A DNA stretch of 46,844 bases from a virus: IMG/VR virus record IMGVR_UViG_3300025674_000073, positions 1 to 46,844 of that record. One strand, given 5' to 3'. This document shows positions 1-20,890 of this stretch, piece by piece. The position numbers and the translations under genes are program-made. A model generated the notes under the pieces. That model saw only the letters and a list, made by a program, of their open reading frames with translations, was not told the origin of the DNA and did not search any database. Within the stretch, counting starts at the first letter, position 1, and every line of letters begins with the position of its first letter.

Positions 1-309
1 AAATATGGTGCTTGGTATTTAGGACACGACGGACCAGAATACCTTATTGATGTTGAGTTTTTAAGACAAAAAGGATTGTGGTGTCACGCAAAAGAAATCA
101 GGTCGTTTTATCGTATGACGGAAGACCCAAACATACATTGTTTTGCACACGATACAGACTTTGCTGCACTAACATCAAAAGGTTATTTTTGGACAAGTTG
201 GTCTTATCAAATGACCAAGAAAAGTATTTGTGTTATGCCACCATTAGGAAAAGATGTTCCTAATTATGTGGCAGGAGTTTGTTCAGACTATATTGAGAGG
301 TATAAATGA
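1..309 (+). CDS. Partial hypothetical protein, 5' end outside the window
   Basis: The reading frame is open from base 1 and ends with TGA at 307-309, so only the last 102 residues are present. An in-frame TTG lies at 76, but the open frame upstream has similar composition, so the true start is probably before the window. The fragment is rich in Trp, Tyr and His. I do not recognise a family. Its stop overlaps the ATG of the next gene (ATGA at 306-309), so it belongs to the glycan operon and may be a glycosyltransferase C-terminus, but no motif proves this. Confidence 0.6.
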   Translation, partial: KYGAWYLGHDGPEYLIDVEFLRQKGLWCHAKEIRSFYRMTEDPNIHCFAHDTDFAALTSKGYFWTSWSYQMTKKSICVMPPLGKDVPNYVAGVCSDYIERYK

Positions 310-1124
310 AAGTAATTTTATGTGATGGTTGTAGTTGGACGGGTGGCCACGATATAGACCCAAAATTAGAAAAAAAAGGAATAACCAATGTTAATCATCC
401 AGATAATGACTCTTATAGATTACCAAAACTTTACCCATATAAATTGGGACAATTGTTTAATGTTGAAATCATTAACAATGGAGTAGCAGGAAGTTCTAAT
501 GACGGAATAGTTCGTAGAACTCTTAGAGAAGTAAAAAATTTATTATCAGAACATAGAGCAAGAGATATATATGTAGTGATTGGTTGGACTTCACCGGAAA
601 GAAAAGACTTTTTCTATCGTGGTGAAGACTACGGAGCATGGGATACTTTATATCCAGTTCAACGAGAATACCATCACCCAGATGATGATGTTCAGAAATT
701 TTGGGAAATATATGTTCAAAAGTATTGGAATGAAGAAGAGTATTTAGAAAGGTATTTACAACAGGTTATGTTTTTACATTTATTTTTAAAAGACCTTGGA
801 GTAAAACATTTGTTTTTTGATGCTTTTTATGAAACTCTACAAGAAAATTCTGAATCAAATTTATTAAACTCTATTGAGGTAGACGATGTTATAGCAGAAA
901 ATGGTTATGACAAAATGGGACACTATTATTTAATGAATTACTTTAACTCATTAAGACAAGATATATTTATGCCAATTTCGTTTAGAAACTTCTTACTTAA
1001 AAAAGATAGAATAAAGTTTGAAGAAAATATGTTTAATAAAAAAGATTATCACCCAACAGAAAAAGCACAACACCTTTGGGCAAAGAAATTAAGTTTAACT
1101 ATCAAGAGGCACATTAATGGATAA
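306..1124 (+). CDS. SGNH/GDSL-type hydrolase-like protein (paralog 1 of 7)
   Basis: This 272-residue protein starts with a beta strand followed by DGCSWTGG, where Ser10 sits in the place of the catalytic serine of SGNH hydrolase block I. A block II-like glycine and asparagine stretch (GVAGSSNDG, residues 59-67) follows. The usual GxND of block III is replaced by IGWTS (92-96). The C-terminal DYHPTEKAQH (247-256) resembles block V with the catalytic His249. SGNH enzymes cleave or transfer acyl esters, often on sugars; here O-acetyl addition to or removal from a surface glycan is the plausible role. It overlaps its upstream neighbour by 4 nt and the downstream gene by 8 nt. It could be inactive, because the oxyanion-hole Asn of block III is missing. 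Confidence 0.72.
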   Translation: MKVILCDGCSWTGGHDIDPKLEKKGITNVNHPDNDSYRLPKLYPYKLGQLFNVEIINNGVAGSSNDGIVRRTLREVKNLLSEHRARDIYVVIGWTSPERKDFFYRGEDYGAWDTLYPVQREYHHPDDDVQKFWEIYVQKYWNEEEYLERYLQQVMFLHLFLKDLGVKHLFFDAFYETLQENSESNLLNSIEVDDVIAENGYDKMGHYYLMNYFNSLRQDIFMPISFRNFLLKKDRIKFEENMFNKKDYHPTEKAQHLWAKKLSLTIKRHING

Positions 1125-1923
1125 CTTTCAATTATACGATGAAAACAAAAAAGGAACAATAATACTTTCACATTATCGTTCAGGTGGAACACAACTACTT
1201 TTAACTTTGACTGAAATGTTAAAATCTAATGGTATTAAAATATCTAATTTTAAAGAATTAAATTTTGACACTTTATCGGGAAAGTCATATAAAACTCAAA
1301 CCGAAGAAATGTTAAAGCACACAAACTATGCAACTATTTTACTAAATAACTCGTTGGTTATAAGTCATTTTTACAATCAAGGTTATTTTGATAAATTAAG
1401 TAAAAATTATAATCTTGTTATATTGGAACGAAAAGATAAACTAATGTCTTTACTTTCTTTACCAATATGGGAAGAACTAATAAATAAAGGATTGTTCCAT
1501 AAAGATTGGAAAACACCATTAGAGCAAACTCAAGATATGGTTGAGTTTCATAACTACTTGTTGAACCATAAACTTGATTGTATGAAATTACACTTGGGTT
1601 GGGAAAATGATATTTTTCAAAAAGGAAATAATGGTGAACCTAATTATTACTACTATTTAAATTACTTAATGAAAGCATATCAAGACGAACTTAATATGTT
1701 AAAAATACTAAAAGAAGAATATAAACTTCATACAATACACTACGAAGATTATGAGTTCATTCCTATGAATTTATCTAAGTATTATGAAAAATTTAGTGAA
1801 AGTAGTAAGAAAAAGGTTTTAGTAAATTCACAAAACAAAATACCATATATTCACAGAAACTTTATCGATTACTTTGATAACTATACTCAGAAAGTTTTGA
1901 GTGATTGGAACTTTGATGATTAA
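1117..1923 (+). CDS. Sulfotransferase-like P-loop protein
   Basis: The N-terminus of this 268-residue protein contains TIILSHYRSGGTQLL (residues 14-28), which looks like the 5'-phosphosulfate-binding loop of PAPS-dependent sulfotransferases. A second segment, ILERKDKLMSLLS (102-114), matches the Arg-x(n)-Ser pattern of the 3'-phosphate-binding motif. Such enzymes move sulfate from PAPS to hydroxyls on sugars. It lies between two SGNH-like genes and overlaps both neighbours, which fits decoration of a glycan. Family assignment rests on these two motifs only, and other P-loop kinases remain possible. Confidence 0.6.
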   Translation: MDNFQLYDENKKGTIILSHYRSGGTQLLLTLTEMLKSNGIKISNFKELNFDTLSGKSYKTQTEEMLKHTNYATILLNNSLVISHFYNQGYFDKLSKNYNLVILERKDKLMSLLSLPIWEELINKGLFHKDWKTPLEQTQDMVEFHNYLLNHKLDCMKLHLGWENDIFQKGNNGEPNYYYYLNYLMKAYQDELNMLKILKEEYKLHTIHYEDYEFIPMNLSKYYEKFSESSKKKVLVNSQNKIPYIHRNFIDYFDNYTQKVLSDWNFDD

Positions 1924-2536
1924 ATTAATCATATTTGATTTGGACGGAGTATTGGTTGATGCCAAAGAAATACATTACAACTCATTAAACCAAGCACTGA
2001 AAAATATAGATAAAAAATATGTTATCAATCGTGATGAACATTTATCCGAATATGACGGAAATCCTACGAGAACAAAACTAACTATGTTATCACAACAAAA
2101 AGGCTTACCTTATGAATTACACGATAAGGTTTGGGAAGATAAACAAAACTTAACAATACAAATGATTAATGATTTGGAAACAGACGAAAGATTAATATCA
2201 GTATTGGAAAGATTAGAAAAAGACGGATATACATTGTGTTGTGCAACTAATTCAGTTCGTCATAGTGCAATTGTCCAATTAACAAGACGAGGATTTATCG
2301 ACCATTTAGAATTTGTATTCACTAACCAAGATGTAGTGAATCCAAAACCCAATACAGAAATTTATTTAAGATGTATGATTAAAGCTGGAGTTAGTCCAAA
2401 AGAAACCATTATACTGGAAGATTCTGAATTAGGAAGAAAAGGAGCAAGAGAAACAGGTTCACCGGTGTTAGAAATAGAAGATTCATCAGATGTCACCTAT
2501 CGTAAGATACGAAAGTTTATTGAAAATGTCAAGTAA
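1916..2536 (+). CDS. HAD-superfamily phosphatase, beta-phosphoglucomutase-like
   Basis: I chose the ATG at 1916 (206 residues), which overlaps the upstream stop, over an upstream GTG at 1901, because translation then starts directly at the first beta strand. HAD motif I is FDLDGVLVD (Asp8 and Asp10). Motif II is the Thr/Ser in CCATNS, motif III is the Lys of NPKPN, and motif IV is ILEDSELGRKGA. A helical cap follows motif I, as in the beta-phosphoglucomutase and phosphoglycolate phosphatase branch. It probably dephosphorylates or isomerises a sugar phosphate for the glycan pathway. The exact substrate cannot be seen. Confidence 0.82.
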   Translation: MIKLIIFDLDGVLVDAKEIHYNSLNQALKNIDKKYVINRDEHLSEYDGNPTRTKLTMLSQQKGLPYELHDKVWEDKQNLTIQMINDLETDERLISVLERLEKDGYTLCCATNSVRHSAIVQLTRRGFIDHLEFVFTNQDVVNPKPNTEIYLRCMIKAGVSPKETIILEDSELGRKGARETGSPVLEIEDSSDVTYRKIRKFIENVK

Positions 2537-3224
2537 AAATTTATATATAAATGGTTGCAGTTTTACAGCAGGACACGAAATACAAGAGGGACTGACTTGG
2601 CCAGAACTTTTATCAAAAAAAATGAATTTAAACTTGATAAACCAAGCAGTAAACGGAAACTCTATGTCATCAATAATGTATAATTCAGTAAATCATTTAC
2701 AAAAATTAAATAGTGATGATACATTAGTGGTGATTGGACTTACTTGGGAATCCCGAACTATGTTACAATTTGATAAGTTTATAACCAACATTACTAATAG
2801 TGATTTAGTCGGTCGAAACTCACAGGTTAAGTTAAGCACTTGGAGAAGAGTATCATCACCATATACATTTGACCAAAATGAAATCAATCTTTTTAGTAAA
2901 AATTTAAATACAAGTAAATATAATAAATTATATAATTCTTTTGTTGATTTTTATCAAGTATTAGTTGAAAATGATAAAAACTTATCTAATAATCAAAACT
3001 TAATCTTAGAAACACAAATACTATTACTACAATCATTTTTAAATCAAAATGATTTTAATTATAGGTTTGTTAATTGGAATACATTGATTGATAGTTCAAA
3101 GTTTAAAAATGTTATTTCATTTGATAAGTCTTGGAAAGAAAAATTTATAGACGACACATCACACCCAACAGAAGAAGGTTGTGTAAATATATCGGAGGTT
3201 ATTTATGATAGCTTTAACAAATAA
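2526..3224 (+). CDS. SGNH/GDSL-type hydrolase-like protein (paralog 2 of 7)
   Basis: The best start is the ATG at 2526 (232 residues); an earlier in-frame start at 2490 would lie well inside the HAD gene. Block I is INGCSFTAGHE with Ser12. A NGNSMSS stretch occupies the block II position, and block III reads VVIGLTWESR instead of GxND. The C-terminal DDTSHPTEEG carries a textbook DxxH pair. The DxxH pair makes this one of the copies most likely to be catalytically active as an acyl esterase or acyltransferase. The downstream gene starts 20 nt before its stop. Confidence 0.75.
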   Translation: MSSKNLYINGCSFTAGHEIQEGLTWPELLSKKMNLNLINQAVNGNSMSSIMYNSVNHLQKLNSDDTLVVIGLTWESRTMLQFDKFITNITNSDLVGRNSQVKLSTWRRVSSPYTFDQNEINLFSKNLNTSKYNKLYNSFVDFYQVLVENDKNLSNNQNLILETQILLLQSFLNQNDFNYRFVNWNTLIDSSKFKNVISFDKSWKEKFIDDTSHPTEEGCVNISEVIYDSFNK

Positions 3225-4470
3225 TTTCAATCAGGTTAGTTTGCACGAACCAACCCAAGATGTTATCGAAAGATATAAACATATTCCAGAAATAAACGAA
3301 TTGGACAACCGTGGATTACCAATTTGTCGTCCATTATTTAGTCATTCAAGTTTACCAGATATTTTAAATTTAGAACTGACAAAAGAAAAAGACTTTGACT
3401 TTAATTCAGAATTTAGTTATTTTGTTCACGTTCATCATAATCAACCATTATGGGCAAAAAACTTAGATGTTATACCAAATAGGATATTAGAAGAAGTTAG
3501 AAAAGGAAATTGTAAATTAATTTTTGATAATACACTCGAAGGTAAATCTATTGAAGGAGAAGAGTTTTTAAATCCATTTTATCAAAGTATTGATAAATTA
3601 AAACTTCCAACAAAAAATATCTACTTCATTACAAATAATTTGATAGCAGAAAAAACACACCAAGAATATCATAGAGCAGATAAGATTAATGTTATATCGA
3701 TTATGTGGAATGTCTTTGATATACAACGACTAAAAGAATTGGGACATCTACCAAAAAAAGTTTCTGCTGAAATGGAACATAAATACAAGTCAGTAAATAT
3801 ATTCAAAATGAAACACTTTTTAAAAATTAATAGAACTAATCGTGATGAACGAGATATATTTATGTTGTTTTTAAATTTCGAAAGAATACTTGATAAGTGT
3901 TTGGTTAGTTTTCCAAATCTTTATAAAGACCAAAACTATCCAAGACAATTTTACAAATACACACAACAAGAAAACATTAATGATTTAAAATCAAAACTAC
4001 CATTTGATATTGATGATACAGATAAAACTAATCACGGACCAGCAGGAATAGGAGAAGGATTCTTTGACGCAGACTTACCATTTAACCCGATACACTATCG
4101 TAATTCATTTATCAGTATTGTTATGGGTGCCTTTCCATTTGACACAAACGGACATCATCTACATAGTTCTACTTTTAATCCTATGTATTGTGGACACCCG
4201 ATTATACAATTTGCACCATACAAATCATTAGAAACTATGAAACAATATGGATTTAAAACCTTCGATAAGTGGTGGGACGAAAGTTATGATGATGAACCAG
4301 ATGATTGGAAACGATTACAAATGGTTATGAACTTAGCTTTGGATTTAAGTGAATATGATGAAAGTAGTTTACTTTATATGTATAATGATATGAAAGAAAC
4401 TCTACAACACAACATTGATGTTATAGAAAACTATGATGTAAAAACAAATTTATACGATAGGATATTTTAA
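3205..4470 (+). CDS. Putative glycosyltransferase-like protein (FucT-like C-terminal region)
   Basis: This 421-residue protein starts inside the preceding gene with a good ribosome binding site (CGGAGG about 8 nt before the ATG). The N-terminal half is unfamiliar. The C-terminal third has the pattern of retaining-fold glycosyltransferases that end with a sugar-nucleotide site: a hydrophobic FISIVMGAFPF, then FNPMYCGHPIIQFAP and a Trp-rich KTFDKWWDESYDDEPDD. A similar 'G-x-P-I-I' turn followed by 'fdkwwDEsYD' is known from phage and bacterial polysaccharide loci. The enzyme class is inference, and the donor and acceptor are unknown. Confidence 0.5.
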   Translation: MIALTNNFNQVSLHEPTQDVIERYKHIPEINELDNRGLPICRPLFSHSSLPDILNLELTKEKDFDFNSEFSYFVHVHHNQPLWAKNLDVIPNRILEEVRKGNCKLIFDNTLEGKSIEGEEFLNPFYQSIDKLKLPTKNIYFITNNLIAEKTHQEYHRADKINVISIMWNVFDIQRLKELGHLPKKVSAEMEHKYKSVNIFKMKHFLKINRTNRDERDIFMLFLNFERILDKCLVSFPNLYKDQNYPRQFYKYTQQENINDLKSKLPFDIDDTDKTNHGPAGIGEGFFDADLPFNPIHYRNSFISIVMGAFPFDTNGHHLHSSTFNPMYCGHPIIQFAPYKSLETMKQYGFKTFDKWWDESYDDEPDDWKRLQMVMNLALDLSEYDESSLLYMYNDMKETLQHNIDVIENYDVKTNLYDRIF

Positions 4471-4853
4471 TGAACGAAACATATTACAACGGAAAGTATA
4501 ACACCATTACACCAGATATGGATTTAGTTAAAGAAGTATTTAGAATTAAAAAGCAAGAACTCGATAATGATGAAGTTTTTTCTGGTAATTTAATTCTTAA
4601 TAAAGAGTTTGATAATTTAGACACCGATAAAATCTTTTCATTACCATTAGATGAAAATACCATTTATGTTAATGATGTAAAGTATTCTGCCAATTGGAAA
4701 GAATGTGAAATAGATGATAGTATATTGTATTGTGGTTCATTTGTTTTATGGATAGTTGGAAACCAACACAGAACACCACAAAATTTATTTGGACAAATGA
4801 GACAACATAGAATAAAAGTAAAAAACATATGGGAGGCATTAAATGAATTATGA
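4470..4853 (+). CDS. Hypothetical protein, 127 residues
   Basis: This is a real gene by position: its ATG overlaps the upstream TAA by one base and its own end overlaps the next gene by 11 nt. The protein is acidic in its first half and ends with a basic, Gln- and His-containing stretch (GNQHRTPQNLFGQMRQHRIK). There is no signal peptide or membrane segment. I do not recognise a family. Sitting between a putative glycosyltransferase and an SGNH-like protein, it presumably serves the same pathway. Confidence 0.55.
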   Translation: MNETYYNGKYNTITPDMDLVKEVFRIKKQELDNDEVFSGNLILNKEFDNLDTDKIFSLPLDENTIYVNDVKYSANWKECEIDDSILYCGSFVLWIVGNQHRTPQNLFGQMRQHRIKVKNIWEALNEL

Positions 4854-5616
4854 TGTAGTGGTAAACTTTGGTTGTAGTTTTATGAACGGGGATAGAGTTC
4901 GTGATGAAAATGGAGTAAGTTTACAATCAGAAGTTGTAGCATCAAAATTACTATCAGATAAATTAAATTGTGATTTTGTTAATTTAGCAAAAACCGGAGC
5001 AGCAAATGATACAATTTTTAGAAGACTTTATAGGTGGGTAGAGTCAAATACTGCATATAAAAATCCATTGATGATTATAGGTTTATCTGGAACAGCAAGA
5101 TTTTCTTATTTTAGTGAACATATGAATAGATTTTATAACCTACACCCAGCACAGATAAATTCTTATGATGATAAATCATTAGAAGTAATGAATGAAAGAG
5201 TAACTAATAACTTTGAAAAACCAAACGTTTTAAGAAATTGGATAGAATATTATTACAAGTGGTTTTATAGTGATGAACATAATGATAAAAAACTTCAACA
5301 AGAAGTTATGTTTTTACATCATTATTTGAAAGGTAATAATTGTGATTACAGATTACACAATTCTTTACAGGATAGTTTAGGTGATATTAAATCAAAAATA
5401 AATTATATTTCTTTTCTGGATAATGATTATACAGAAGAGGATTGTTGGTATGGATATTTACATTGGCAAGTATACAATGTTGATAAAGAAGATTTTAGTG
5501 ATAATGTGAGATTTAGAAGAAATCAACCACCTTGGGGAAAAAGATTTTGCGATGGACACCCTTCACCAAACGCAAACAAGGAATTATTTGATAGAATATA
5601 TGAGAGTTTAAAATGA
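4843..5616 (+). CDS. SGNH/GDSL-type hydrolase-like protein (paralog 3 of 7)
   Basis: The 257-residue product begins with a strand leading to NFGCSFMNGD, with Ser12 as the block I nucleophile. Block II-like KTGAANDTIFRR and block III-like MIIGLSGTARF follow. The C-terminal CDGHPSPNANKELF carries the block V histidine, with Asp two residues ahead instead of three. Its layout matches the other SGNH paralogs in this cluster, especially those at 306 and 12098. It probably acts on acyl groups of a glycan. The overlap with both neighbours suggests translational coupling. Confidence 0.72.
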   Translation: MNYDVVVNFGCSFMNGDRVRDENGVSLQSEVVASKLLSDKLNCDFVNLAKTGAANDTIFRRLYRWVESNTAYKNPLMIIGLSGTARFSYFSEHMNRFYNLHPAQINSYDDKSLEVMNERVTNNFEKPNVLRNWIEYYYKWFYSDEHNDKKLQQEVMFLHHYLKGNNCDYRLHNSLQDSLGDIKSKINYISFLDNDYTEEDCWYGYLHWQVYNVDKEDFSDNVRFRRNQPPWGKRFCDGHPSPNANKELFDRIYESLK

Positions 5617-6404
5617 AAATAGCAATTTGTATGAGTGGACAACTTCGTCAATGGGAAATGGCAAAAGAAAATCAAAAATGGTTTTGGTCATCAGGCCCAA
5701 ATGAACAGGTAGATTACTTTATTCACACTTGGGATTATAGTGGAGATAGAAAAGGAGTATCTCAACCATATGAGTGGAGAGATATTTCACAAGAAGAATT
5801 TGATAAAGTAGTGGAGTGGTATCAACCAAAAGGTTATGTATTTGATGATAAAAAGCAAGAGTTTTTTTATCAACACGACCATTGGAGTAGTTTGTTTTAT
5901 AGTATGGCACAATCTATAATGTTGAAACGAGAATATGAAATAGAAAACAATATAGAATATGATGTTGTTATCAAGTCAAGACCAGATGTAGTGTTTGACC
6001 CGAAGTATCACTTTAGTCCAGAACATTTAGAAAATAATTTACTCTACTCTACACACGGAGGAATTATGGAGCACGAGTTTGGTATGTATAATGTAAACGA
6101 TTGTGTTTTTTATGGAAATTCTTACACTATGGATTTAGTGTCTCAAATGTATTCATATAGACAAAAAATGTTAGACGGAAGAAATATTATTAAAGATAAA
6201 TTATTTACAGGTTCAATGGGGCCTGGGGTTCTAATGCAAGAATATTTTAGAGAGTATGGAATAACACCACAATCCATTCAACCAAATCAATTTACTTTTA
6301 TAGAAACACTACTGAAATTAGGTTGTCCAGACGATTTACATCTAATGGAACATAACGATTTTCATAAAATGGAAAAATATTTTAGGGATTGGTATAAAAA
6401 GTGA
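5613..6404 (+). CDS. Putative glycosyltransferase, 'SGQLR/SRPD' family
   Basis: This 263-residue protein starts KIAICMSGQLRQW and carries VVIKSRPDVVFD at residues 118-129, where the SRPD segment occupies the position of a DxD-like metal or sugar-nucleotide motif. A paralog in the same operon (13679-14494) has the matching landmarks IAVCISGLIRFW and VITTRNDVVIP. Proteins of this type appear in phage and bacterial polysaccharide loci and are treated as glycosyltransferase-like. The donor sugar is not predictable. The start overlaps the upstream stop by 4 nt (ATGA). Confidence 0.55.
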   Translation: MKIAICMSGQLRQWEMAKENQKWFWSSGPNEQVDYFIHTWDYSGDRKGVSQPYEWRDISQEEFDKVVEWYQPKGYVFDDKKQEFFYQHDHWSSLFYSMAQSIMLKREYEIENNIEYDVVIKSRPDVVFDPKYHFSPEHLENNLLYSTHGGIMEHEFGMYNVNDCVFYGNSYTMDLVSQMYSYRQKMLDGRNIIKDKLFTGSMGPGVLMQEYFREYGITPQSIQPNQFTFIETLLKLGCPDDLHLMEHNDFHKMEKYFRDWYKK

Positions 6405-7261
6405 ATATAATTACAGGAGAAAAGTTTCAACAAATTTGTAATCACAATCTTAGCACAGAACTAATGATTAAGTTTGAGTATCATTCCGAAAAGTATATCA
6501 ATGTTAGAGAGTTTGATTTTGTAAACTTCGATAACAGAGAAATGGTTTTTATAAATAATAACTTATTTCACTTACTATCATTACAAAGAATAAATAAAAA
6601 ATCTGAGTTAAAAGAAGTTAATATGTTTGAGATATTATCACAATTTAAAAATCCATTTAATTTAATTTTACATAATAATGACTCGCCATTTACCGATGAT
6701 GATTTAATTTATTTTGATATACCGAATTGTAAAAAAATATACACACAGAATACAATGACATACGATAAAAGAGTTATTCCGATACCAATTGGTATTGCCA
6801 ATTCTTGTTGGAAATGGGGAGACTTATCAGTTTGGGAAAATGTAAAAATAAAAGATAAAAGAAATAATTTTGTATATTTTAACTTTCAAGTTGAAGGTGG
6901 ATGTAGAGACCAAAAAAGACCAGATTGTTATGAAAGTATTTCATCACAAGGAATCGAGTGGTTAGAAATGATACCATATAATGATTACATAGAAAACTTG
7001 TCTACTTATGAATTTAGTGTTTGTCCAGAAGGAAATGGAATTGATACACATAGGCTTTGGGAATCTCTTTACTTAAAAGTAATTCCTATCGTTGATAAAA
7101 ATCCTATGACAGAACATTTCTCAAAGTGGTTTCCTATGGTGTTGGTTGATGATTGGAAAACTTTTGATGTTAATGATGTGAAAGGAACTTATAATGATTA
7201 CAATTGGGAAAATTATTATTTATTAGACTTTGATAAATTTTGTAAAAAGGTAGGATTATGA
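6401..7261 (+). CDS. Exostosin/GT47-like glycosyltransferase
   Basis: The gene starts with GTG at 6401, overlapping the previous TGA by 4 nt. The 286-residue product has a C-terminal block YEFSVCPEGNGIDTHRLWES followed by LYLKVIPIV. This is characteristic of exostosin-like and related GT-B transferases, in which the Glu and His-Arg bind the nucleotide sugar. An upstream VIPIPIGIAN stretch fits the linker before the C-terminal Rossmann domain. It likely adds a sugar to the glycan built by this operon. Confidence 0.68.
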   Translation: MNIITGEKFQQICNHNLSTELMIKFEYHSEKYINVREFDFVNFDNREMVFINNNLFHLLSLQRINKKSELKEVNMFEILSQFKNPFNLILHNNDSPFTDDDLIYFDIPNCKKIYTQNTMTYDKRVIPIPIGIANSCWKWGDLSVWENVKIKDKRNNFVYFNFQVEGGCRDQKRPDCYESISSQGIEWLEMIPYNDYIENLSTYEFSVCPEGNGIDTHRLWESLYLKVIPIVDKNPMTEHFSKWFPMVLVDDWKTFDVNDVKGTYNDYNWENYYLLDFDKFCKKVGL

Positions 7262-13679: not shown

Positions 13680-14494
13680 TGAAAAGAATAGCAGTTTGTA
13701 TATCAGGTTTAATTAGGTTTTGGGAAGAAACCTACCCATTATATCAACATTGGAATAACTTATTTGATGATGTAGAGTTTGTTTTTTACATTGCTACTTG
13801 GAAAAGAGATGATGCTTGGTATGATAAAACCAGAACTGCTGAAGGTATAATTAAAGATATAGACTTTACTAAATATAAATTTGTAAACTATTGGACTAAA
13901 TTAGACGATACTAAGGTTTATCATAGAAATAGTAAACCATCAAGTTTACCATATATGGCTTATGCAATAAAACACGTCCATAAACTTAGAAATGAATCGG
14001 GAGAAAAATTTGATGGTGTCATAACAACACGAAATGATGTAGTCATTCCATATACAACAATCAGAGATTGTGTTAGATTGGTTAGAAATAAACCTCACCA
14101 CTTTACTGATAATGCTTTTTTTAATGCCCCAGCTTTAAAAAGTTTTTCTAACCAAAGTAGATTAATTTTAGAAAGAGATTATTTTCATTTTGGGACTGAA
14201 AAGTCAATGGATAAGTTTTCAGAAATGTATGATAGTTATAAAAGTAATGAACTAATAGAAAAAACTAATCACTATGCACCAGCCGAACACTTGTTTAATA
14301 AAAATCTTATGGTTATAAAAATGGGTGCTATACCAAAACTTATAAAAGAAAAATCAAATCCGTTTATGAAAAAAGGTTGGCCCACACCATCTATATTGAG
14401 AAAAATTTATCAAGAAGAAGGAATTGAGTATATGTTTGGAGATTGGAATACAATAGATAAACGATTCTATACTGAATGGGATAATACAGAATGA
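13679..14494 (+). CDS. Putative glycosyltransferase, 'SGQLR/SRPD' family (second copy)
   Basis: This 271-residue product is a paralog of the protein at 5613-6404. It begins RIAVCISGLIRFWEE and has FDGVITTRNDVVIP (residues 111-124) where the first copy has SRPD. The TRND segment is a candidate substrate or metal site. Both copies have a similar length and a Trp/Tyr-rich N-terminal third. It likely transfers a sugar, with donor unknown. The start overlaps the upstream radical SAM stop, and the end overlaps the methyltransferase gene by 4 nt. Confidence 0.55.
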   Translation: MKRIAVCISGLIRFWEETYPLYQHWNNLFDDVEFVFYIATWKRDDAWYDKTRTAEGIIKDIDFTKYKFVNYWTKLDDTKVYHRNSKPSSLPYMAYAIKHVHKLRNESGEKFDGVITTRNDVVIPYTTIRDCVRLVRNKPHHFTDNAFFNAPALKSFSNQSRLILERDYFHFGTEKSMDKFSEMYDSYKSNELIEKTNHYAPAEHLFNKNLMVIKMGAIPKLIKEKSNPFMKKGWPTPSILRKIYQEEGIEYMFGDWNTIDKRFYTEWDNTE

Positions 14495-15006
14495 AATTAA
14501 TATCAGAAGAATATAAAAAAATACTACAACAAGTTCATCAAACTGATAAATGGGGTCGTGTAGCAAAAAGTCAATCTTCAAGTATAAAAAAATTGTTAGA
14601 TGAATATAATATAAAAAGACTATTAGACTATGGTTCGGGTTGGGGTGGATTAAAAGATAGTTTACCAAGTGATTATGAAGTTATTGAGTATGAACCAGGT
14701 ATAGAAGAAAAAAGTCAATCACCAGAACCAGAAAAGTTTGTAGTGTGTATAGATGTTTTAGAACACATTGAACCCGAATATATTGAAAATGTTTTAGATG
14801 ATTTACAAAGAGTAGTTTTGGATAAAGGATTTTTCACTATATCTTGTAGAGAAGCAGTTAGAAGATTACCAAATGGTAAAAACGCACACTTAATTGTTAA
14901 ACCGCATACTTGGTGGAAAGATAAACTGGAATTAAGATTTAATATTCTTACATATGAATATAGTGATTCTTCGGAACAATGTCAAGTATTTTTGGAGAAA
15001 AAATGA
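14491..15006 (+). CDS. SAM-dependent methyltransferase (class I)
   Basis: The 171-residue protein has motif I LLDYGSGWGGL (residues 44-54), which binds S-adenosylmethionine, and the acidic end of strand 2 in IEYEPG. Post-motif CIDVLEHIEPEYI matches the 'DvlEHi' signature of methyltransferases acting on small molecules or sugars. A late WWKDKLELRF fits the C-terminal strands. It may O- or N-methylate a sugar of the glycan. It is shorter than most family members but looks complete. Confidence 0.8.
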   Translation: MKLISEEYKKILQQVHQTDKWGRVAKSQSSSIKKLLDEYNIKRLLDYGSGWGGLKDSLPSDYEVIEYEPGIEEKSQSPEPEKFVVCIDVLEHIEPEYIENVLDDLQRVVLDKGFFTISCREAVRRLPNGKNAHLIVKPHTWWKDKLELRFNILTYEYSDSSEQCQVFLEKK

Positions 15007-15782
15007 AAAAAACATTAATAGGAGTGGGGTGTTCACATACACAAGGTTGTGCGATAGAAAAAAACGGAAAACTGTTATCCCAACAATTAAAAGATTTATA
15101 TAATAGAGAAGAAGTTTCACCAGAATGGATTACTGAAAACTTTTCTTGGATAGGATGCTTGGGTAATTTACTAAATGTTGATGAAAAAATAAACTTTGGA
15201 TTTGGTGGTAGGGGAGTCGAACAATGTATTAGGGCTCTTAAAAATTACTCATATAAAAAAGTTGATTTATCCAATCACTTAATTATATTTCAAATTCCAT
15301 CATTAGATAGAGTTGAAATATTAAATTCTTATAATGACAAATTTGTTTTAACAGAGAGTATAAAATATTTACATAAAAATCAAAGACAAGACTTTTTTGA
15401 AAACTACTACGATACAAACTACTATCAATATAAATTTATAAATGAGTTATACTTTTTACAAAATTATTTGCAAAGTTTAGGTGCAAAAATATACTTTTTC
15501 GATTTATTCACACCAATTAGATTAAAAGATATTAAACATTATTCTAAAGAAGTAGTGGATACACTTCACAATAATTTAAATTGGTCATTAGAATTGAATA
15601 AAAATATAGAATTAGATGAATTAATAAGTAGTCTTAATTTACTAAAACTGAGTGATAACCCAAACTTAGTAAGACTATCTCAAGAAAATCTTTTAGATGA
15701 TAATCATTTATCTGAAACAGGGAATAGAAATTTAGCAAAATCAATTTATAAAGAGATAAAAAATGAAACCACATTTACATAA
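15003..15782 (+). CDS. SGNH/GDSL-type hydrolase-like protein (paralog 6 of 7)
   Basis: I prefer the ATG at 15003 (259 residues) over one at 14979, because it forms the usual ATGA junction with the methyltransferase gene and has TTGGAG about 7 nt upstream. Block I is IGVGCSHTQGC (Ser11). Block II is GFGGRGVEQC, with Gln in place of the common Asn. Block III is replaced by IFQIPSLDR, which deviates from the IG(W/L/F)(T/S) of the other copies. Block V LDDNHLSETGN is a proper DxxH. This is the most diverged paralog and may have a different substrate. Confidence 0.68.
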   Translation: MKKTLIGVGCSHTQGCAIEKNGKLLSQQLKDLYNREEVSPEWITENFSWIGCLGNLLNVDEKINFGFGGRGVEQCIRALKNYSYKKVDLSNHLIIFQIPSLDRVEILNSYNDKFVLTESIKYLHKNQRQDFFENYYDTNYYQYKFINELYFLQNYLQSLGAKIYFFDLFTPIRLKDIKHYSKEVVDTLHNNLNWSLELNKNIELDELISSLNLLKLSDNPNLVRLSQENLLDDNHLSETGNRNLAKSIYKEIKNETTFT

Positions 15783-16815
15783 AGTAAAAAGAATATTTGA
15801 CTACACGGATAAATCTGAATATGATTTTATTTTAAATCAATCAGAACGCTCACAACCAATTCCACACTCTTATTATACAAAATTTTTAAGAAGTTTAAAA
15901 CAAGAGGATTTTGCATATTATCCCAATACAAAAAACTTTAAAGAAAAAATATGTGATTTTTATAATGTAAAACCAGAAAACTTATTTTTAAGTGATGGTT
16001 CTGATGTCGGTATCAAGTCTATATTTGAAACCTTCACAACTTGTGGCAATATCGTTACATCAGAACCGTCCTTTCCTATGTATGGAGTTTACGCATCATT
16101 ATATAAGTGTCCATATAGAGGAATACACTACGACAAAGATACAAGACAATTATCAGTAGAACATATGTTAAAGTTCGTTGATGATGAAACTGATTTGATT
16201 ATATTGGCAAACCCAAATAGTCCAATCGGAGATTACAAAACCATAGACGAAATTAAACCTTTATTAGATACAGGTATTCCGGTATTGATTGATGAAGCGT
16301 ATATAGAGTTTTTAGATACAGAAGATTTATATTATGATAGTTTTATCAAGTATATTGATGAGTATCCAAATCTAATCGTAACAAGAACATTTTCCAAAGC
16401 ATTTGGTGCAGCAGGTTGTAGAGTCGGTATGACTTTTTCTAATCCACACTACATAGAAAATATTTCCAAGTTTAGACAAATGTATGAGATATCAGGTGTA
16501 TCTATGAAGTATTGTGAGTTTTTAATCGATAACTTTCATTTAGTTGATATCTATACACAAGAAGTTATTGAAGAACGAAAAAAAGTCTTGACATTGATGA
16601 AAAATTTTAGTATATTAAATAGTGAGGCAAATTGGATACATTTCAATACTTACGATGATAATCTAAAAACAAAACAAATTCTCGATAAACACAAAGTATT
16701 AGTTAAGTATTGTAAAATACACCCATACGGAGAACGAGATAATTGGTGTCGTATGACAATTCAACCAGGACTTTCAGAACAACAATTTTTTAAGGACTTG
16801 TTAAATGTTGTCTAA
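15763..16815 (+). CDS. Aminotransferase class I/II, HisC-like (PLP-dependent)
   Basis: The 350-residue protein shows the fold-type I aminotransferase landmarks: LSDGSDVGIKSIF (PLP phosphate region), ILANPNSPIGDY (149-158), VLIDEAYIEF (174-183), TRTFSKAFGAAGCRVG with Lys212 as the PLP Schiff-base lysine, and a C-terminal Arg in CRMTI. Its length equals that of histidinol-phosphate aminotransferases. A histidine biosynthesis role is unlikely in this context. Conversion of a keto intermediate into an amino sugar or amino alcohol phosphate for the glycan is more plausible. Confidence 0.82.
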   Translation: MKPHLHKVKRIFDYTDKSEYDFILNQSERSQPIPHSYYTKFLRSLKQEDFAYYPNTKNFKEKICDFYNVKPENLFLSDGSDVGIKSIFETFTTCGNIVTSEPSFPMYGVYASLYKCPYRGIHYDKDTRQLSVEHMLKFVDDETDLIILANPNSPIGDYKTIDEIKPLLDTGIPVLIDEAYIEFLDTEDLYYDSFIKYIDEYPNLIVTRTFSKAFGAAGCRVGMTFSNPHYIENISKFRQMYEISGVSMKYCEFLIDNFHLVDIYTQEVIEERKKVLTLMKNFSILNSEANWIHFNTYDDNLKTKQILDKHKVLVKYCKIHPYGERDNWCRMTIQPGLSEQQFFKDLLNVV

Positions 16816-18031
16816 TATACCAGGTAATAAAGAATATGTAGACTACTTTTTTAAAAATCACAAGTTGTTTTTTTGTGATAATTTACCTTGGCAATTTTAT
16901 AATTTAGAAAATTCAAAAAGATTTAACTCAACTAACTTGGAAGTTAGATTGGACTATTTATTTTCCAAACAAGGTTTTTTTAACAGAATGGATATTGAAA
17001 ATAATTTTCCAGAACACTTTGATGAATATGCTGACTATTCTTATAATTTTAAAAATAAAAGATACATAAGTCAAGAACTAATTTCAAATGGATTTAACAA
17101 CCCAACCCATACAAGTTTTAAAAATAACTCAAATGATATAGTTATTGATTTTGATAATCCTACAAGTGTTTATAAAAAAACTTCTATTGTTACGCATCCT
17201 GGAAACACCAGATTTTATTCTTCTACATTTTTACAAAAAAATTTAAATAAGTGTTTTATTTATGTTAATAAAAAATATTACTATGACGGAATGTTCAAGA
17301 CCCAATTAAAAGAAATAAAAACAATTGAAGAAGCATTTTCTTATTGGAAACCGGTTGAAAATGTAAAACCTGAAAATCGTAGATATGACTTTGTTCATAT
17401 TAAAGTTTTAGAAAGTGATAATGAAGACACTTTTATGGGTTCCAAAAGACACTTAATTACAGATTGTAGTATTTTAAAGTTGTGGAAACTATTAGATAAT
17501 TCAAAAGTAAATGATATTACAATTAGAGGTGTGAATTATTTAGATACTTTACAATATATGTCCAGAGTTAATGAGTCTGGTAAAGAATTAGCAAATATAA
17601 TATTTGAAAAAAACCTAACTATTTACACAAATTCAAATAAAGATTTAAAAAAATACTTTTTAAATGTAAGAAATGGTCTAATAAAAAGTGCAAAAAACTT
17701 TTTACTTAATTATAAAAAGTTAAATAAAGACTTTGTTTTTGATAAAGTGGACAAATTTGATTTTGATGTTGTGGTGGTAGATAAAAAACCAAACAACATA
17801 TCAGAACTAAATGGTAATAAAGGATTTGCTATTTGGATTGACAAAGATATGGTAGAAAAAACCAATAGAGAGATTTTTGAGTTTTTATGTTTTACGCGAA
17901 GAGATGTAAAATTAGCAGAAACAAAAGACGGAAAAATATCAGTAGTGAATTGTCGTGATATTAATTCCAACATAAAATGGGTAATACACGAAGAATTTTT
18001 AAAATGTGGGGTAAATACAGATGAAAGATAG
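16805..18031 (+). CDS. Hypothetical protein with HPGNTR motif (possible ParB/Srx-like fold)
   Basis: This 408-residue protein is not recognisable as a whole. Residues 91-154 hold an ELISNGFNNP stretch and later SIVTHPGNTRFY followed by NKCFIYVNK. That order resembles the ParB/sulfiredoxin pattern of 'nG..nP.....hPG.tR.......iyv', as in the two shorter proteins at 8769 and 10228. The C-terminal half has several Lys- and Asn-rich segments and no membrane helix. It lies between an aminotransferase and a dehydrogenase, overlapping both, so it is part of the same pathway. The fold call is tentative. Confidence 0.42.
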   Translation: MLSNIPGNKEYVDYFFKNHKLFFCDNLPWQFYNLENSKRFNSTNLEVRLDYLFSKQGFFNRMDIENNFPEHFDEYADYSYNFKNKRYISQELISNGFNNPTHTSFKNNSNDIVIDFDNPTSVYKKTSIVTHPGNTRFYSSTFLQKNLNKCFIYVNKKYYYDGMFKTQLKEIKTIEEAFSYWKPVENVKPENRRYDFVHIKVLESDNEDTFMGSKRHLITDCSILKLWKLLDNSKVNDITIRGVNYLDTLQYMSRVNESGKELANIIFEKNLTIYTNSNKDLKKYFLNVRNGLIKSAKNFLLNYKKLNKDFVFDKVDKFDFDVVVVDKKPNNISELNGNKGFAIWIDKDMVEKTNREIFEFLCFTRRDVKLAETKDGKISVVNCRDINSNIKWVIHEEFLKCGVNTDER

Positions 18032-18845
18032 AATATTATTTATAACACCAGTAAAACATTTAGCAGAATTTTATAGTTATGCTTTACAAAACTATGAAGT
18101 GTTGGAATTAATAGAACCAACATATCAAGATGTTAAAATACAATTACCAAATTTTGATATATTATTTTGTGCACCCAATCATCAAACATTTGTTATTGAT
18201 GAAGACTTAATCAAAGACTCAAATGTAAAATCTATATTGTCACCGTCAACAGGACTCAATCACATCAATGTTGATTCGGTTCCAATTGTATCGGTAAAGA
18301 ACGATAAGGTTTTAAATGATGTTTGGTCAACAGCAGAACACACTTTATATCTAATATTATCAATAGTTAGAGGAAAACACGAACTACACGACAAAACATT
18401 AGGTATCATTGGATATGGAAGACTTGGCAAAATGGTAGAACAATTATGTAGACCATTGTTTAAAAAAATCATATCAGTAGATAAAGGTGATAGTCTTGAT
18501 AAATTATACAATGAAAGTGATGTAGTTTCACTTCATATGGATTACAATCCTACAACAGAATATATGATTGACAACGAATTCCTAAGTCATTTTAAAAAGA
18601 ACATTTACTTAATCAACACAGCAAGAGGTGAGATTGTAAATGAACAAGATATAAAACACTTACTATCAGTCGGTAGAATCAAAGGATATGCTACTGATGT
18701 ATTGCAAACAGAATACAATGAACAAAAGTCAGTATTTTATGGAGTGGATTATGTAATCACTACACCACACATTGCGGGAACATCAATAGAAGCACAAGAA
18801 AAAACATACAAAAGGGTATTGGAGAAATATGAAAACACTAAATAA
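18021..18845 (+). CDS. D-isomer-specific 2-hydroxyacid dehydrogenase (PHGDH-like)
   Basis: The 274-residue product has STGLNHINVDS in the place of the family's substrate-binding STGxxxID, then LGIIGYGRLGKMV (128-140) as the Rossmann GxGxxG. VVSLHMDYNPTT, INTARGEIVNE and TTPHIAGTS carry the helix, Arg/Glu and catalytic His positions. This family oxidises or reduces D-2-hydroxyacids with NAD(H). It is shorter than 3-phosphoglycerate dehydrogenase and lacks a regulatory ACT domain. With the neighbouring HisC-like aminotransferase, it could make an amino compound from a hydroxyacid. Confidence 0.82.
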   Translation: MKDRILFITPVKHLAEFYSYALQNYEVLELIEPTYQDVKIQLPNFDILFCAPNHQTFVIDEDLIKDSNVKSILSPSTGLNHINVDSVPIVSVKNDKVLNDVWSTAEHTLYLILSIVRGKHELHDKTLGIIGYGRLGKMVEQLCRPLFKKIISVDKGDSLDKLYNESDVVSLHMDYNPTTEYMIDNEFLSHFKKNIYLINTARGEIVNEQDIKHLLSVGRIKGYATDVLQTEYNEQKSVFYGVDYVITTPHIAGTSIEAQEKTYKRVLEKYENTK

Positions 18846-19359
18846 CTTTTTAGAAACAACAGAATATAAATGGATAGAAAAAATGTTTGTTAGTGGAGGT
18901 AAATATCTTAGTGCACTTAACTACATTGTAGAACACCAACCAAAAGTTATCGTGGAATATGGTGGTGGACAAAGCACACTTATGATAACAGAACTTGTTA
19001 ATTATTTGGACTATGGTGGTAAGGTAATCGCTTATGAAAGTGATGAATATTGGTATAACCAACACATAGAAAGTGGTTGGAATAAACATAACAATATAAA
19101 ACTTGTCAATATTGAGCAGGTAGATATTGGTGTTAGATATATTCACCCGATAGAAGATGTTCAAGGAGTTGATTTTGTAATATTAGACGGGCCTGATTTA
19201 AGAAAGTTTACACCATATCCACACACAACATATAATTTGAAAGACATTGTTGACTACATAGGACAAGAAATTCCTTATTTTATTGACGGAAGGACTGGAA
19301 CAAGGAACTTTTACAAACATTTAGGTTATACCACAGATATAGGAGATAGAAAATTATGA
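18829..19359 (+). CDS. Methyltransferase-like Rossmann protein
   Basis: The protein has 176 residues. VIVEYGGGQSTLMI (40-53) resembles SAM-binding motif I, followed by KVIAYESDEYW, whose acidic residue ends strand 2. DFVILDGPD fits motif II of small class I methyltransferases. A late PYFIDGRTGTRNFY is unusual and may form part of the substrate site. It is likely a methyltransferase or a related nucleotide-binding enzyme of the glycan operon. The ATG has GGAG about 5 nt upstream, inside the previous gene. Confidence 0.6.
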   Translation: MKTLNNFLETTEYKWIEKMFVSGGKYLSALNYIVEHQPKVIVEYGGGQSTLMITELVNYLDYGGKVIAYESDEYWYNQHIESGWNKHNNIKLVNIEQVDIGVRYIHPIEDVQGVDFVILDGPDLRKFTPYPHTTYNLKDIVDYIGQEIPYFIDGRTGTRNFYKHLGYTTDIGDRKL

Positions 19360-20165
19360 AAATAATAACTGAACTATGTCAAAACCATAATGGAGATATC
19401 AACATCGTAAAAGATATGGTAGAACAATCTAAACTTAGTGGTGCGGACATTTGTAAAATACAATCCATTAAAGCAGATTCATTAACCAACAGAAGTGAAT
19501 ATGAATCATTCAGAACCTATCAATCTGAATACGATAGATTTAAAGAATTAGAATTAAGTTATGATGATGAAAAGAAATTTATAGACTTTTGCGGACAAGA
19601 CATAATACCAATGACCACAATCTTTTCCACTACTGATTATGATTATTATAATTCATTAGGATACGATTATTTAAAACTTAGTGGATATTCTATGGAAGCA
19701 TTTGACTATGGACTAAAATTAGATAAGTTTAATTTTAAACACTTGGTATTCTCAACATCAAGTTTAACTTTAGACGAAATCAAACAATGTATTGATAATT
19801 TACAAGGAGTTGATTTTACAATATTACATTGTGTTTGTTTGTATCCAACACCATTTGAAAAAGTAAATTTATCATCAATAGAACTTTTAAAAACTTTACA
19901 CGATAACATTGGACTTAGTGACCACTCAAATAATTTATTAATTAGTAAACAAGCAATACTACAAGGTATTGATATGTTGGAAAAACACTTTACCATTTTA
20001 AACAAAGAAAAAACAAGAGACGGACAAGTTTCTATTAATCCACAAGAATTACGAGAATTAAATCAGTTTAGAAAATATTCTCGTGAACAACAATTCAGAA
20101 TATTAAATACATTTAACGATAAACAAAAATTTAATCACAAATATTATAGAGGTAGATTTAAATGA
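19356..20165 (+). CDS. neuB: NeuB-like nonulosonate synthase without C-terminal antifreeze-like domain
   Basis: NeuB enzymes condense phosphoenolpyruvate with a six-carbon sugar to give nonulosonic acids. The TIM-barrel landmarks are present: ITELCQNHNGD (Glu6), CKIQSIKADSL, YLKLSGYSM, STSSLTLDEI, LHCVCLYPTP with VNLSSIELL, IGLSDHSN, and MLEKHFTILNKEKTRDGQVS. The protein ends at 269 residues shortly after the barrel, so the roughly 60-residue SAF/antifreeze-like domain of canonical NeuB (about 340 residues) is missing. The NeuA-like gene at 9584 complements it. The product could be sialic-, pseudaminic- or legionaminic-like. Confidence 0.82.
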   Translation: MKIITELCQNHNGDINIVKDMVEQSKLSGADICKIQSIKADSLTNRSEYESFRTYQSEYDRFKELELSYDDEKKFIDFCGQDIIPMTTIFSTTDYDYYNSLGYDYLKLSGYSMEAFDYGLKLDKFNFKHLVFSTSSLTLDEIKQCIDNLQGVDFTILHCVCLYPTPFEKVNLSSIELLKTLHDNIGLSDHSNNLLISKQAILQGIDMLEKHFTILNKEKTRDGQVSINPQELRELNQFRKYSREQQFRILNTFNDKQKFNHKYYRGRFK

Positions 20166-20890
20166 TATTACTTTGTAATGGAGATAGTTGGACACAAGGT
20201 GATTCACCAGCACAAACACCAAATTGGAACGCAAAACCAAATTTAGATTGGTATAATATTATACCTGACTTTGGAGAACATTGTAACTTTCATCCAGATA
20301 GGGTATTATATAAGTTTTACGATAGTGATATATGGCCAAAAGTATTAGGAAAAAAACTTGGAGTAGAAACTTGGAATTGTGGTAGGTTGGGTGCAAGTAA
20401 TGATAAAATCATTAGAACTACAATTAATTCTATTGAGTATTTAGAATCATTAGGTAAAACAGATATATTTGTTGTGATTGGTTTGACCAGTATAAATCGA
20501 TATAGTAATTTAGAATTAAACTATTCATATGAAGAATTGAGAATTGAAAGTGATAATATTAATCCAGTATTGGTTCAAAAGAATTTAGTAAATTTAATCA
20601 ATATTCAGAACTATTTATCTATGAAAGGTTATGATTATTTAATATTTAATGCGTTTGATACTCTAATGGAAGATGATTTTAAGTCTTTACCATTGTATCA
20701 ATATATTGATTTTGACAAAATTTACAACAATGATTTAACGGCACACTTTAGAAATTATATAGATAATAAATTTAATACTATGTGGCATGTAAACGGAAAA
20801 CACTACCAAGCAGCACACCCAACAGATTTTTCTCACATAGAGTGGGGTAATGAATTACATAAATACATTAAGGAGAACTATAATGTTTAA
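20162..20890 (+). CDS. SGNH/GDSL-type hydrolase-like protein (paralog 7 of 7)
   Basis: The last gene of the glycan train encodes 242 residues. Block I is LLCNGDSWTQGD with Ser9, and block II is GRLGASNDKIIRTTI, very like SNDGIVRRTL of the first paralog at 306. Block III reads VVIGLTSINRY. The C-terminal AAHPTDFSHIEWG keeps the His-Pro but has Gln-Ala where DxxH would place Asp. The start codon overlaps the NeuB stop (ATGA). The role should match that of the other copies, acyl handling on the sugar, with uncertain activity. Confidence 0.72.
   Translation: MILLCNGDSWTQGDSPAQTPNWNAKPNLDWYNIIPDFGEHCNFHPDRVLYKFYDSDIWPKVLGKKLGVETWNCGRLGASNDKIIRTTINSIEYLESLGKTDIFVVIGLTSINRYSNLELNYSYEELRIESDNINPVLVQKNLVNLINIQNYLSMKGYDYLIFNAFDTLMEDDFKSLPLYQYIDFDKIYNNDLTAHFRNYIDNKFNTMWHVNGKHYQAAHPTDFSHIEWGNELHKYIKENYNV

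Follow-up and report, generated by a model that had tools for sequence, protein, structure and literature searches.

A position-fixed, exchangeable glycan gene island in a marine lineage of T4-related phages, with a possible role on tail fibers

We analyzed a DNA stretch of 46,844 nucleotides (the window), which is positions 1 to 46,844 of the IMG/VR virus record IMGVR_UViG_3300025674_000073. Its first part holds a train of 28 open reading frames (ORFs), o01 to o28. Our best explanation is that this train is one cassette of a glycan island that has a fixed position, can be swapped, and belongs to a marine lineage of T4-related phages. The island may be a soluble, fiber-linked glycan factory that decorates the phage's own tail fibers; we put the probability of this reading at about 0.45.

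ORF calling placed all 28 ORFs on the + strand at positions 1 to 20890, and each of the 27 consecutive junctions is an overlap of at least 1 base. o01 is truncated at its 5′ end by the window edge (base 1), and o28 ends at 20890. After a gap of 152 bases comes the kinase-like o29 (start, 21043), followed on the same strand by the endolysin gene o30 (21801) and the genes for the terminase large subunit (TerL, 28056), portal (29637), head protease (33635), and major head protein (41996). An earlier annotation made from the DNA letters (the sequence-only reading) had described an overlapping one-strand train with NeuB-like, NeuA-like, nucleotidyltransferase, HAD, aminotransferase, hydroxyacid dehydrogenase, and radical SAM genes, directly linked to head genes. 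ORF calling and Pfam bear this out, with a cytidylyltransferase, a HisC-like pyridoxal phosphate (PLP) enzyme, and a 2-hydroxyacid dehydrogenase among the genes and with lysis and T4-type head genes downstream. Its methyltransferase calls held in part: o21 has a PHROG methyltransferase match (with a Pfam score below the cut-off), but o26 matches nothing. Neither Pfam nor PHROG gave a match for o03, which had been called sulfotransferase-like; sulfotransferase domains are present in the orthologous island of contig G001 (described below). The features are as follows.

o01, 1..309, + strand: 5′-truncated short protein with weak likeness to glycerophosphodiester phosphodiesterases (full-length homolog L195:2694-3122, best PDB match E 0.07)
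o02, 306..1124, + strand: SGNH-fold protein by model (DUF6071, PF19547 1.7e-17; AlphaFold [AF2] model, predicted local distance difference test [pLDDT] 86.8, Z 15.0 to E. coli TesA)
o03, 1117..1923, + strand: no assigned family (no Pfam or PHROG match)
o04, 1916..2536, + strand: HAD-family hydrolase, sugar-phosphate phosphatase or mutase type (HAD_2, PF13419 3e-27)
o05, 2526..3224, + strand: SGNH/DUF6071 paralog (Pfam 5.7e-05; island profile 8.2e-45)
o06, 3205..4470, + strand: conserved island family, 1 to 5 copies per island (no Pfam or PDB match; in 12/12 islands)
o07, 4470..4853, + strand: small protein without assigned family (Pfam scan)
o08, 4843..5616, + strand: SGNH/DUF6071 paralog (Pfam 2.6e-05; island profile)
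o09, 5613..6404, + strand: GT-A-fold glycosyltransferase (GT)-like protein (AF2 model, pLDDT 73; Foldseek BoGT6a 9.5e-06, also glycogenin and LgtC)
o10, 6401..7261, + strand: weak GT47 exostosin-like match (PF03016 3.7e-04, below cut-off)
o11, 7258..8121, + strand: SGNH/DUF6071 paralog (Pfam 0.0024; island profile 9.7e-63)
o12, 8099..8785, + strand: GT8-like by eye (phrog_28018 4e-51, a PHROG without assigned function)
o13, 8769..9587, + strand: o15 paralog, ParB-like motif by eye (alignment A5)
o14, 9584..10237, + strand: cytidylyltransferase, KdsB/NeuA type, proposed to activate the NeuB product with cytidine monophosphate (CMP) (CTP_transf_3, PF02348 3.4e-11; NeuB co-occurrence)
o15, 10228..11088, + strand: o13 paralog (alignment A5)
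o16, 11085..11396, + strand: small HAD phosphatase, capsule phosphatase type (TIGR01689 3.9e-06, below cut-off; phrog_1238 2.3e-23)
o17, 11380..12111, + strand: sugar-1-phosphate nucleotidyltransferase-like (NTP_transferase, PF00483 8.5e-10; PDB 4evw 6.6e-18)
o18, 12098..12751, + strand: SGNH/DUF6071 paralog (PF19547 4.5e-07)
o19, 12744..13679, + strand: radical SAM/SPASM enzyme (Radical_SAM, PF04055 1.4e-15; SPASM, PF13186 1.1e-06)
o20, 13679..14494, + strand: GT-A-like, o09 family (phrog_13607 1.4e-09; alignment A3)
o21, 14491..15006, + strand: methyltransferase-like (phrog_24759 8.7e-20)
o22, 15003..15782, + strand: divergent SGNH paralog (no Pfam match; island SGNH profile 5.6e-52, o22 being itself a member; catalytic Ser and His kept)
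o23, 15763..16815, + strand: PLP enzyme, HisC/CobD-like (Aminotran_1_2, PF00155 1.7e-40; TIGR01141 1.1e-59, below cut-off)
o24, 16805..18031, + strand: confined to NeuB-bearing islands (contig presence table)
o25, 18021..18845, + strand: D-2-hydroxyacid dehydrogenase (2-Hacid_dh_C, PF02826 1.9e-34)
o26, 18829..19359, + strand: no family match, methyltransferase-like by eye (Pfam, PHROG, and TIGR scans)
o27, 19356..20165, + strand: NeuB-like synthase without C-terminal SAF domain (NeuB, PF03102 1.6e-39, no SAF match; PDB 8h2c 1e-17)
o28, 20162..20890, + strand: SGNH/DUF6071 paralog (PF19547 1.6e-10)
o29, 21043..21801, + strand: P-loop kinase-like (zeta-toxin/AAA_33), downstream edge of the variable slot (PF06414 7.1e-09)
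o30, 21801..22283, + strand: endolysin, GH108 plus peptidoglycan binding (PF05838 1.2e-26)
TerL, 28056..29624, + strand: terminase large subunit (phrog_2 9.7e-49)
Major head protein, 41996..43645, + strand: gp23 type (phrog_138 1.2e-73)

The island occupies a fixed slot upstream of o29. A search with NeuB gave two near-identical contigs, G001 and G002. Most of o01 to o28 have counterparts in G001, at 24 to 76% identity, and the gene order is kept; o12, o18, and o21 have no listed counterpart, o20 and o19 are exchanged, and some genes are replaced or added. Past these genes, G001 carries GT7, radical-SAM, methyltransferase, and Hint-domain genes and then a gene for a 2892-aa fiber with an S74 chaperone domain. 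A search anchored on o29 gave 80 loci, of which 43 with at least 4 kb upstream were counted. If an island is called at five or more matches to glycan-island proteins, 19 of these loci have an island, 21 have none, and 3 are intermediate, with L161/L163 and L168/L169, which come from near-identical contigs, counted twice. The largest upstream ORF is at least 730 aa in 20 of the 21 no-island loci versus at most 648 aa in the 19 island loci. By eye, the no-island loci that were checked hold mainly structural-type proteins in the slot (collagen-like, LamG-like, and large repetitive ORFs).

Eight full-length islands (G001, G1237 to G1242, and G1244) run from the S74-chaperone fiber to o29 or o30. 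They span 28.1 to 43.8 kb and 31 to 52 genes (43 or 44 in G001, depending on the cut), and in all seven that were counted the genes lie on a single strand. G1243 was excluded from this set because no S74 fiber was found on the record. The sequence-only reading had named two findings that would count against the cluster, a chimeric contig and decay of its genes in close relatives. The first is ruled out by the same island/head junction, which recurs in independently assembled contigs; the second is dealt with below.

The fiber end of the islands forms a constant arm. Its recurrent order is the S74 fiber, a Hint-domain or related protein, c46 (GT-like by eye, with no Pfam match), the Hint-domain protein c31, one or two methyltransferases, the weakly GT2-like c44, at least two GT7 proteins (one with a LamG lectin domain), and a large radical-SAM protein. 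In G1240 the methyltransferase and c44 are missing at this position; G1243 has the same arm, with the fiber undetected. Three types of cassette follow the arm: NeuB (G001 and G1244), radical-SAM/HisC without NeuB (G1242 and G1243), and epimerase/RmlC/thiamine pyrophosphate (TPP) enzyme (G1237 to G1241, some with PhyH or carbamoyltransferase genes, according to Pfam on representatives). NeuB-cassette genes are lacking from 6 of the 12 large islands profiled (G004 and G1237 to G1241). The window shows the cassette only; judging from orthology with these relatives, the missing upstream part should hold the constant arm.

Cassette genes have been recombined between phages, since island genes have synonymous divergences (dS) far below those of backbone genes on the same contig. 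The o17 gene of G1242 (L182) has a dS of 0.26 relative to the window, versus 1.69, 1.15, and 1.15 for o30, o39, and o40 of that contig. Likewise, the dS of o16 of L188 is 0.21, versus 0.79 for o29 and 0.71 for o30 on the same contig and 0.75 for o39 (read from L109). Ratios of nonsynonymous to synonymous divergence (dN/dS) were 0.034 to 0.26 in all island gene pairs computed; pairs were limited to those with at least 60% identity over 70% of their length, which biases the values toward conserved genes, and several contigs are entered twice under different locus names. The frames are intact, and dN/dS values of 0.26 or less argue against gene decay as well as stuffer DNA.

The commonest family in the islands, which was not reported in the sequence-only reading, is DUF6071, whose members, as modeled, have the SGNH fold. 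The window has seven divergent paralogs (o02, o05, o08, o11, o18, o22, and o28); the DUF6071 Pfam profile matches six, three of them above its cut-off, and o22 was recovered through the island profile only. The model of o02, built from a 36-sequence alignment (mean pLDDT, 86.8), aligned with E. coli TesA over 172 residues with a Z of 15.0 and a root mean square deviation of 3.0 Å, and Foldseek matched it to PDB entry 4rsh at 1.7e-07. Further down the VIA list are carbohydrate esterases, and PatB, a peptidoglycan O-acetyltransferase, is among the Foldseek matches. In alignment A2, 36/36 sequences retain both the Ser of block I and the His of block V, and 33/36 retain the Gly of block II. The block III Asn (GxND) is not kept; its column, which was assigned by reading of the alignment, has Thr in 21, Ser in 11, Pro in 3, and Ala in 1 of the 36, and four residues after it is an invariant Arg (36/36). 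The standard SGNH catalytic set thus appears to be incomplete in the island paralogs, which may act as hydrolases or acyltransferases.

We traced the island families with profiles built from island proteins, the window's included, which match their own members by construction; for family counts, merging of identical proteins reduced the set from 610 to 522, and some of the near-duplicate contigs were excluded. SGNH proteins occur in all 12 large islands, in 1 to 7 copies each and 51 in total. None was found in the 25 ORFs and 14 ORFs of the sugar stretches of phages S-SM2 and B23, respectively, and the SGNH, o09, o06, and o13/o15 families all have no members among the 718 proteins around cellular NeuB genes. 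An SGNH gene is directly followed by a glycosyltransferase or o06-family gene 14 times versus 8.8 expected (P = 0.036) and by an o06 gene 8 times versus 3.1 expected (P = 0.007); we give little weight to these values, which are two of four tests on islands related to one another. Among Pelagibacteraceae, DUF6071 gave a weak match in 1 of 297 genomes and none above the cut-off, and no paper on it was found in the open-access literature searched.

A second frequent island family includes o09 and o20; the o09 model is GT-A-like, with BoGT6a as its best match. Neither o06 nor o13/o15 has a relative by PDB sequence search, the sole row for these searches, a dynein light chain at E 0.1, being taken as chance; o06 also has no Pfam match. 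When 50,697 phage records were searched by tblastn, o02, o06, o19, and one constant-arm GT7 had no match, o17 had 19 (18 of them Synechococcus phages), and o09 had 3; the o17 and o09 matches are nearly all in Synechococcus phages.

Family matches and gene co-occurrence support a nonulosonate-like module in the window. By its Pfam match, o27 belongs to the NeuB family of synthases that condense phosphoenolpyruvate (PEP). It keeps the two His residues, taken here to bind metal, that line up with GLSDHS and EKHF in 8h2c, and it is 269 aa long, versus ~350 aa in most matched PDB synthases. By its Pfam match, o14 is a putative CMP-sugar synthetase. We compared 23 contigs, many of them partial. o14 and NeuB occur together in all seven contigs that bear o14, an eighth NeuB contig is a fragment that starts inside o26, and o14, absent from the other 15, was never found without NeuB. 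o19 is present in 16 of the 23, and 13 of these, NeuB-free contigs included, also have o23 above the threshold used. Because o14 and NeuB co-occur while o19 and o23 are also found in contigs without NeuB, the cassette splits into an o14/o24-o27 module and an o17/o19/o23 module. Of the 28-gene nonulosonate pathway proposed earlier, the nonulosonate-like module is supported; as a description of the cluster the proposal is too narrow, as NeuB and o14 are limited to one cassette type. No description of a phage NeuB island was found in the open-access literature searched.

We propose the following course for the sugar, the chemical steps and their substrates, the acceptor, and the advantage. Soluble island enzymes would make activated sugars in the infected cell. 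o27 would condense a sugar with PEP to give a nonulosonate-like acid, which o14 would activate with cytidine triphosphate, and o17, o19, and o23, with the HAD phosphatases, would make a second, probably amino-modified, nucleotide-activated unit. The glycosyltransferases o09 and o20, and probably o10 and o12, would join these units, and the methyltransferases and SGNH proteins (the latter as O-acyl transferases or esterases) would edit the product. The glycan would most likely be attached in the cytosol to the tail fibers and neighboring virion proteins, comparable to the O-glycosylation of bacterial flagellin by soluble enzymes. As a result, each phage would get a surface glycan type.

Absence of membrane proteins fits this course. 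No protein with at least two membrane segments occurs among the 28 of the window or among 490 island proteins (44 loci), 8 of which have one segment; segments were called with a Kyte-Doolittle threshold, and the island proteins were of 100 to 700 aa. At cellular NeuB loci, 49 of 668 proteins have at least two segments, and 28 of 54 loci have a protein with at least four. An acceptor within reach of cytosolic enzymes would account for this lack of multi-pass membrane proteins. The sequence-only reading had called for a search for a missing NeuC-type epimerase, flippase, or polymerase; none was found by Pfam in the window.

Several points weigh against decoration of the phage's own fibers. The lack of membrane proteins is compatible both with a virion protein and with a host lipid-linked precursor as the acceptor: if the glycan were assembled on a lipid carrier of the host and the host exported it, phage membrane proteins would likewise not be needed, and the sugar cluster of S-SM2 also has no multi-pass membrane protein in its 25 ORFs. 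The constant arm lies outside the window and is deduced from relatives; weak similarity and position are the only grounds for calling the Hint proteins virion proteins, and virion glycosylation itself is predicted from genes. The authors of the pelagimyophage study interpret similar islands as modifying the host O-chain, in the parts of PMC7029224 covered here. Finally, the product is nonulosonate-like at most. o27 falls far below the NeuB and PseI equivalog cut-offs (148.6 bits versus 399.65 and 126.8 versus 340.25, respectively) and has no SAF/antifreeze domain match at E 0.01. The precursor steps (NeuC, or dehydratase, aminotransferase, and hydrolase) had no Pfam match in o01 to o28, where sequence upstream of base 1 is outside the window, the G001 island was family-scanned in part, and the host could supply the steps.

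It is quite possible, and nearly as likely, that the phage enzymes instead rebuild or add to host lipopolysaccharide (LPS) or capsule by way of the host carrier lipid and export, blocking superinfection by competitors or adsorption to debris. This is the usual published interpretation of cyanophage and pelagimyophage islands (PMC7029224 and PMC3037559, both as seen in part), and the closest cellular relatives of the phage NeuB sit in marine bacterial and archaeal sugar loci. These relatives (54 loci) are mostly ~31 to 39% identical (~26% in two, and 44% in one partial match), are mostly ~320 aa long versus ~270 in o27, and come from SAR11, SAR116, Prochlorococcus, Patescibacteria, archaea, Bacteroidota, and others. 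An o25-like 2-hydroxyacid dehydrogenase is a neighbor in 14 of the 54 loci and an o14-like cytidylyltransferase in 8, so the trio with NeuB is also a cellular module. However, the island proteins tested include no multi-pass membrane protein and so no usual flippase or polymerase, the position of the slot between tail-fiber and lysis/head genes on one strand points to late expression, Hint-domain proteins are interspersed in the constant arm, and the SGNH, o06, and o13/o15 families are absent around cellular NeuB genes. Gene linkage somewhat favors virion decoration over host-surface remodeling, a choice that sequence cannot decide.

That both are true, with a sugar that mimics a host glycan being put on the fibers or with activated sugars serving virion and host alike, is unlikely in our estimate; in its favor, the NeuB, cytidylyltransferase, and dehydrogenase genes resemble cellular loci and are found alongside a fiber-coupled arm. 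Neutral stuffer DNA for headful packaging, which Sullivan et al. 2010 raise as a possibility for the LPS clusters of cyanophages (PMC3037559, seen in part), is very improbable given the low dN/dS, the intact overlapping frames, and the gene order kept in distant relatives. Equally implausible is hypermodification of phage DNA bases by the products of the kinase, PLP, radical-SAM, and nucleotidyltransferase genes; three of these types (radical SAM, PLP, and P-loop kinase) are indeed encoded close together, but NeuB, cytidylyltransferase, several glycosyltransferases, the RmlC/epimerase cassettes of relatives, and the fiber linkage indicate glycans.

Like bacterial O-antigen and capsule loci, the islands have a fixed position, constant flanks, exchangeable central cassettes, and mosaic gene identity; unlike them, they lie in phage genomes, have no multi-pass membrane proteins, and are rich in SGNH genes. 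Virion glycosylation in mycobacteriophages reportedly takes one or a few glycosyltransferases, unlike the de novo sugar synthesis and dozens of genes here, as judged from the genes. Those phages do resemble our proposal in that virion proteins are O-glycosylated by phage genes (Freeman 2023, cited in PMC11652166, which was seen in part). Flagellin O-glycosylation in the cytosol has been described, and the Caulobacter FlmG/NeuB system likewise couples soluble NeuB-type synthesis to protein O-glycosylation before export (PMC7591256, parts covered); unlike that system, the window has no FlmG- or Maf-type match among its Pfam results.

Large sugar clusters in marine T4-like phages are already known from cyanophages and pelagimyophages. 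The earlier claim that the cluster is far larger than is usual in T4-like phages therefore fails for marine ones: S-SM2 has ~25 contiguous sugar genes, and P-SSM2 and S-SSM7 have large LPS gene clusters (PMC3037559, in the parts covered). The sugar genes of S-SM2 also overlap on one strand, and the o17 and o09 families are common to the window and the cyanophage clusters (S-SM2, P-SSM2, S-SSM7, and B23). Unlike the island, the cyanophage LPS clusters lie near hli, phoH, and tRNA genes (PMC3037559, same parts); in the stretches compared, those of B23 and S-SM2 do not adjoin head genes, whereas the window's island runs into them, and the S-SM2 and B23 stretches tested have no members of the SGNH, o06, or o13 families. 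The host recognition cluster (HRC) of pelagimyophages is hypervariable, with a mean of 44.6 kb, and is like the island (28 to 44 kb) in being a large hypervariable region among structural genes, with tail fibers and many glycosyltransferases. However, the HRC is between vrlC and gp14, and the island extends from the S74 fiber to the kinase/endolysin genes upstream of TerL (no search for vrlC or gp14 was made). The parts of PMC7029224 that underlie this comparison make no mention for the HRC of an SGNH expansion or of radical SAM/NeuB and RmlC cassettes. Within the searches made, the lineage, the SGNH expansion, the constant fiber-linked arm with cassette exchange, and the comparison of one slot with island-free relatives are new.

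The nearest named relatives of the major head protein are in Microcystis phage Mel-JY01 (57%), Flavobacterium phage immuto (53%), and Rhodothermus phage RM378 (38%); it is also 57% identical to that of an uncultured 484 kb phage. In the stretches compared, the annotation upstream of TerL in Mel-JY01 and immuto shows no glycan island. The 484 kb phage (LR756508.1) also has, at distant places, relatives of NeuB (25%) and of a Hint protein (27%), and is possibly a jumbo relative of the lineage. The host is probably not a Bacteroidota, because Shine-Dalgarno sequences are strongly used (36 of 55 window gene starts versus 153 of 2000 random positions), unlike in immuto (0 of 47). With E up to 1e-20, a TerL search found matches in 2 of 397 Pelagibacteraceae genomes. 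With E up to 1e-50, it found a match in 1 of 397 genomes of a Flavobacteriaceae sample (34%), in none of 136 genomes from the order to which a SAR116 genome belongs, and in 1 of 299 from the order of a Prochlorococcus genome (33%). A 3.1 kb contig of a Pelagibacteraceae genome (G219:C12, L257) has a TerL at 57 to 59% identity, a possible host hint.

Some other features were seen. In L174 (5448-7491) the slot upstream of o29 holds several ORFs with prepilin-like N termini, and in G1238 (L118 / L119) a 542-aa ORF, GroEL-like by eye, adjoins o29 at the downstream edge of the island. When inspected by eye, the large protein o35 (23803-26769), encoded upstream of TerL in the window, shows two motifs, one like that of NMNAT nucleotidyltransferases and one a ligase-like KxDG. 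The positional counterpart of o35 in immuto is annotated as NMN adenylyltransferase, and in relatives o35 is 1000 to 1700 aa long and in some apparently joined to o29. By eye, o55 (43864-44433), which adjoins the major head gene, resembles a GIY-YIG homing endonuclease.

Tentatively, the island could be a phage "serotype" locus. The constant arm would attach a glycan stem to the fiber, and the exchangeable cassettes (nonulosonate, radical-SAM amino-sugar, and deoxythymidine diphosphate-sugar/TPP enzyme) would build variable outer sugars, each edited by its own SGNH acyl enzymes. The receptor-binding apparatus would thus receive a complex glycan coat that is made from central metabolites and diversified by recombination, as O-antigens are. 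The structural model gives DUF6071, an uncharacterized Pfam family, a likely identity as SGNH-fold proteins expanded in phage glycan islands. The sugar clusters of marine T4-like phages have been known for more than a decade, but their function is not agreed upon (host remodeling, mimicry, or stuffer DNA). Because the islands have a constant fiber-linked arm, exchangeable cassettes, and no membrane export genes, and because the same slot holds mainly structural-type genes in island-free relatives, their layout offers a testable alternative, namely, that phage-made sugars are placed on the phage's own tail fibers. Should this be so, there would be glycan serotypes among phages, and these would have recombination dynamics of their own.

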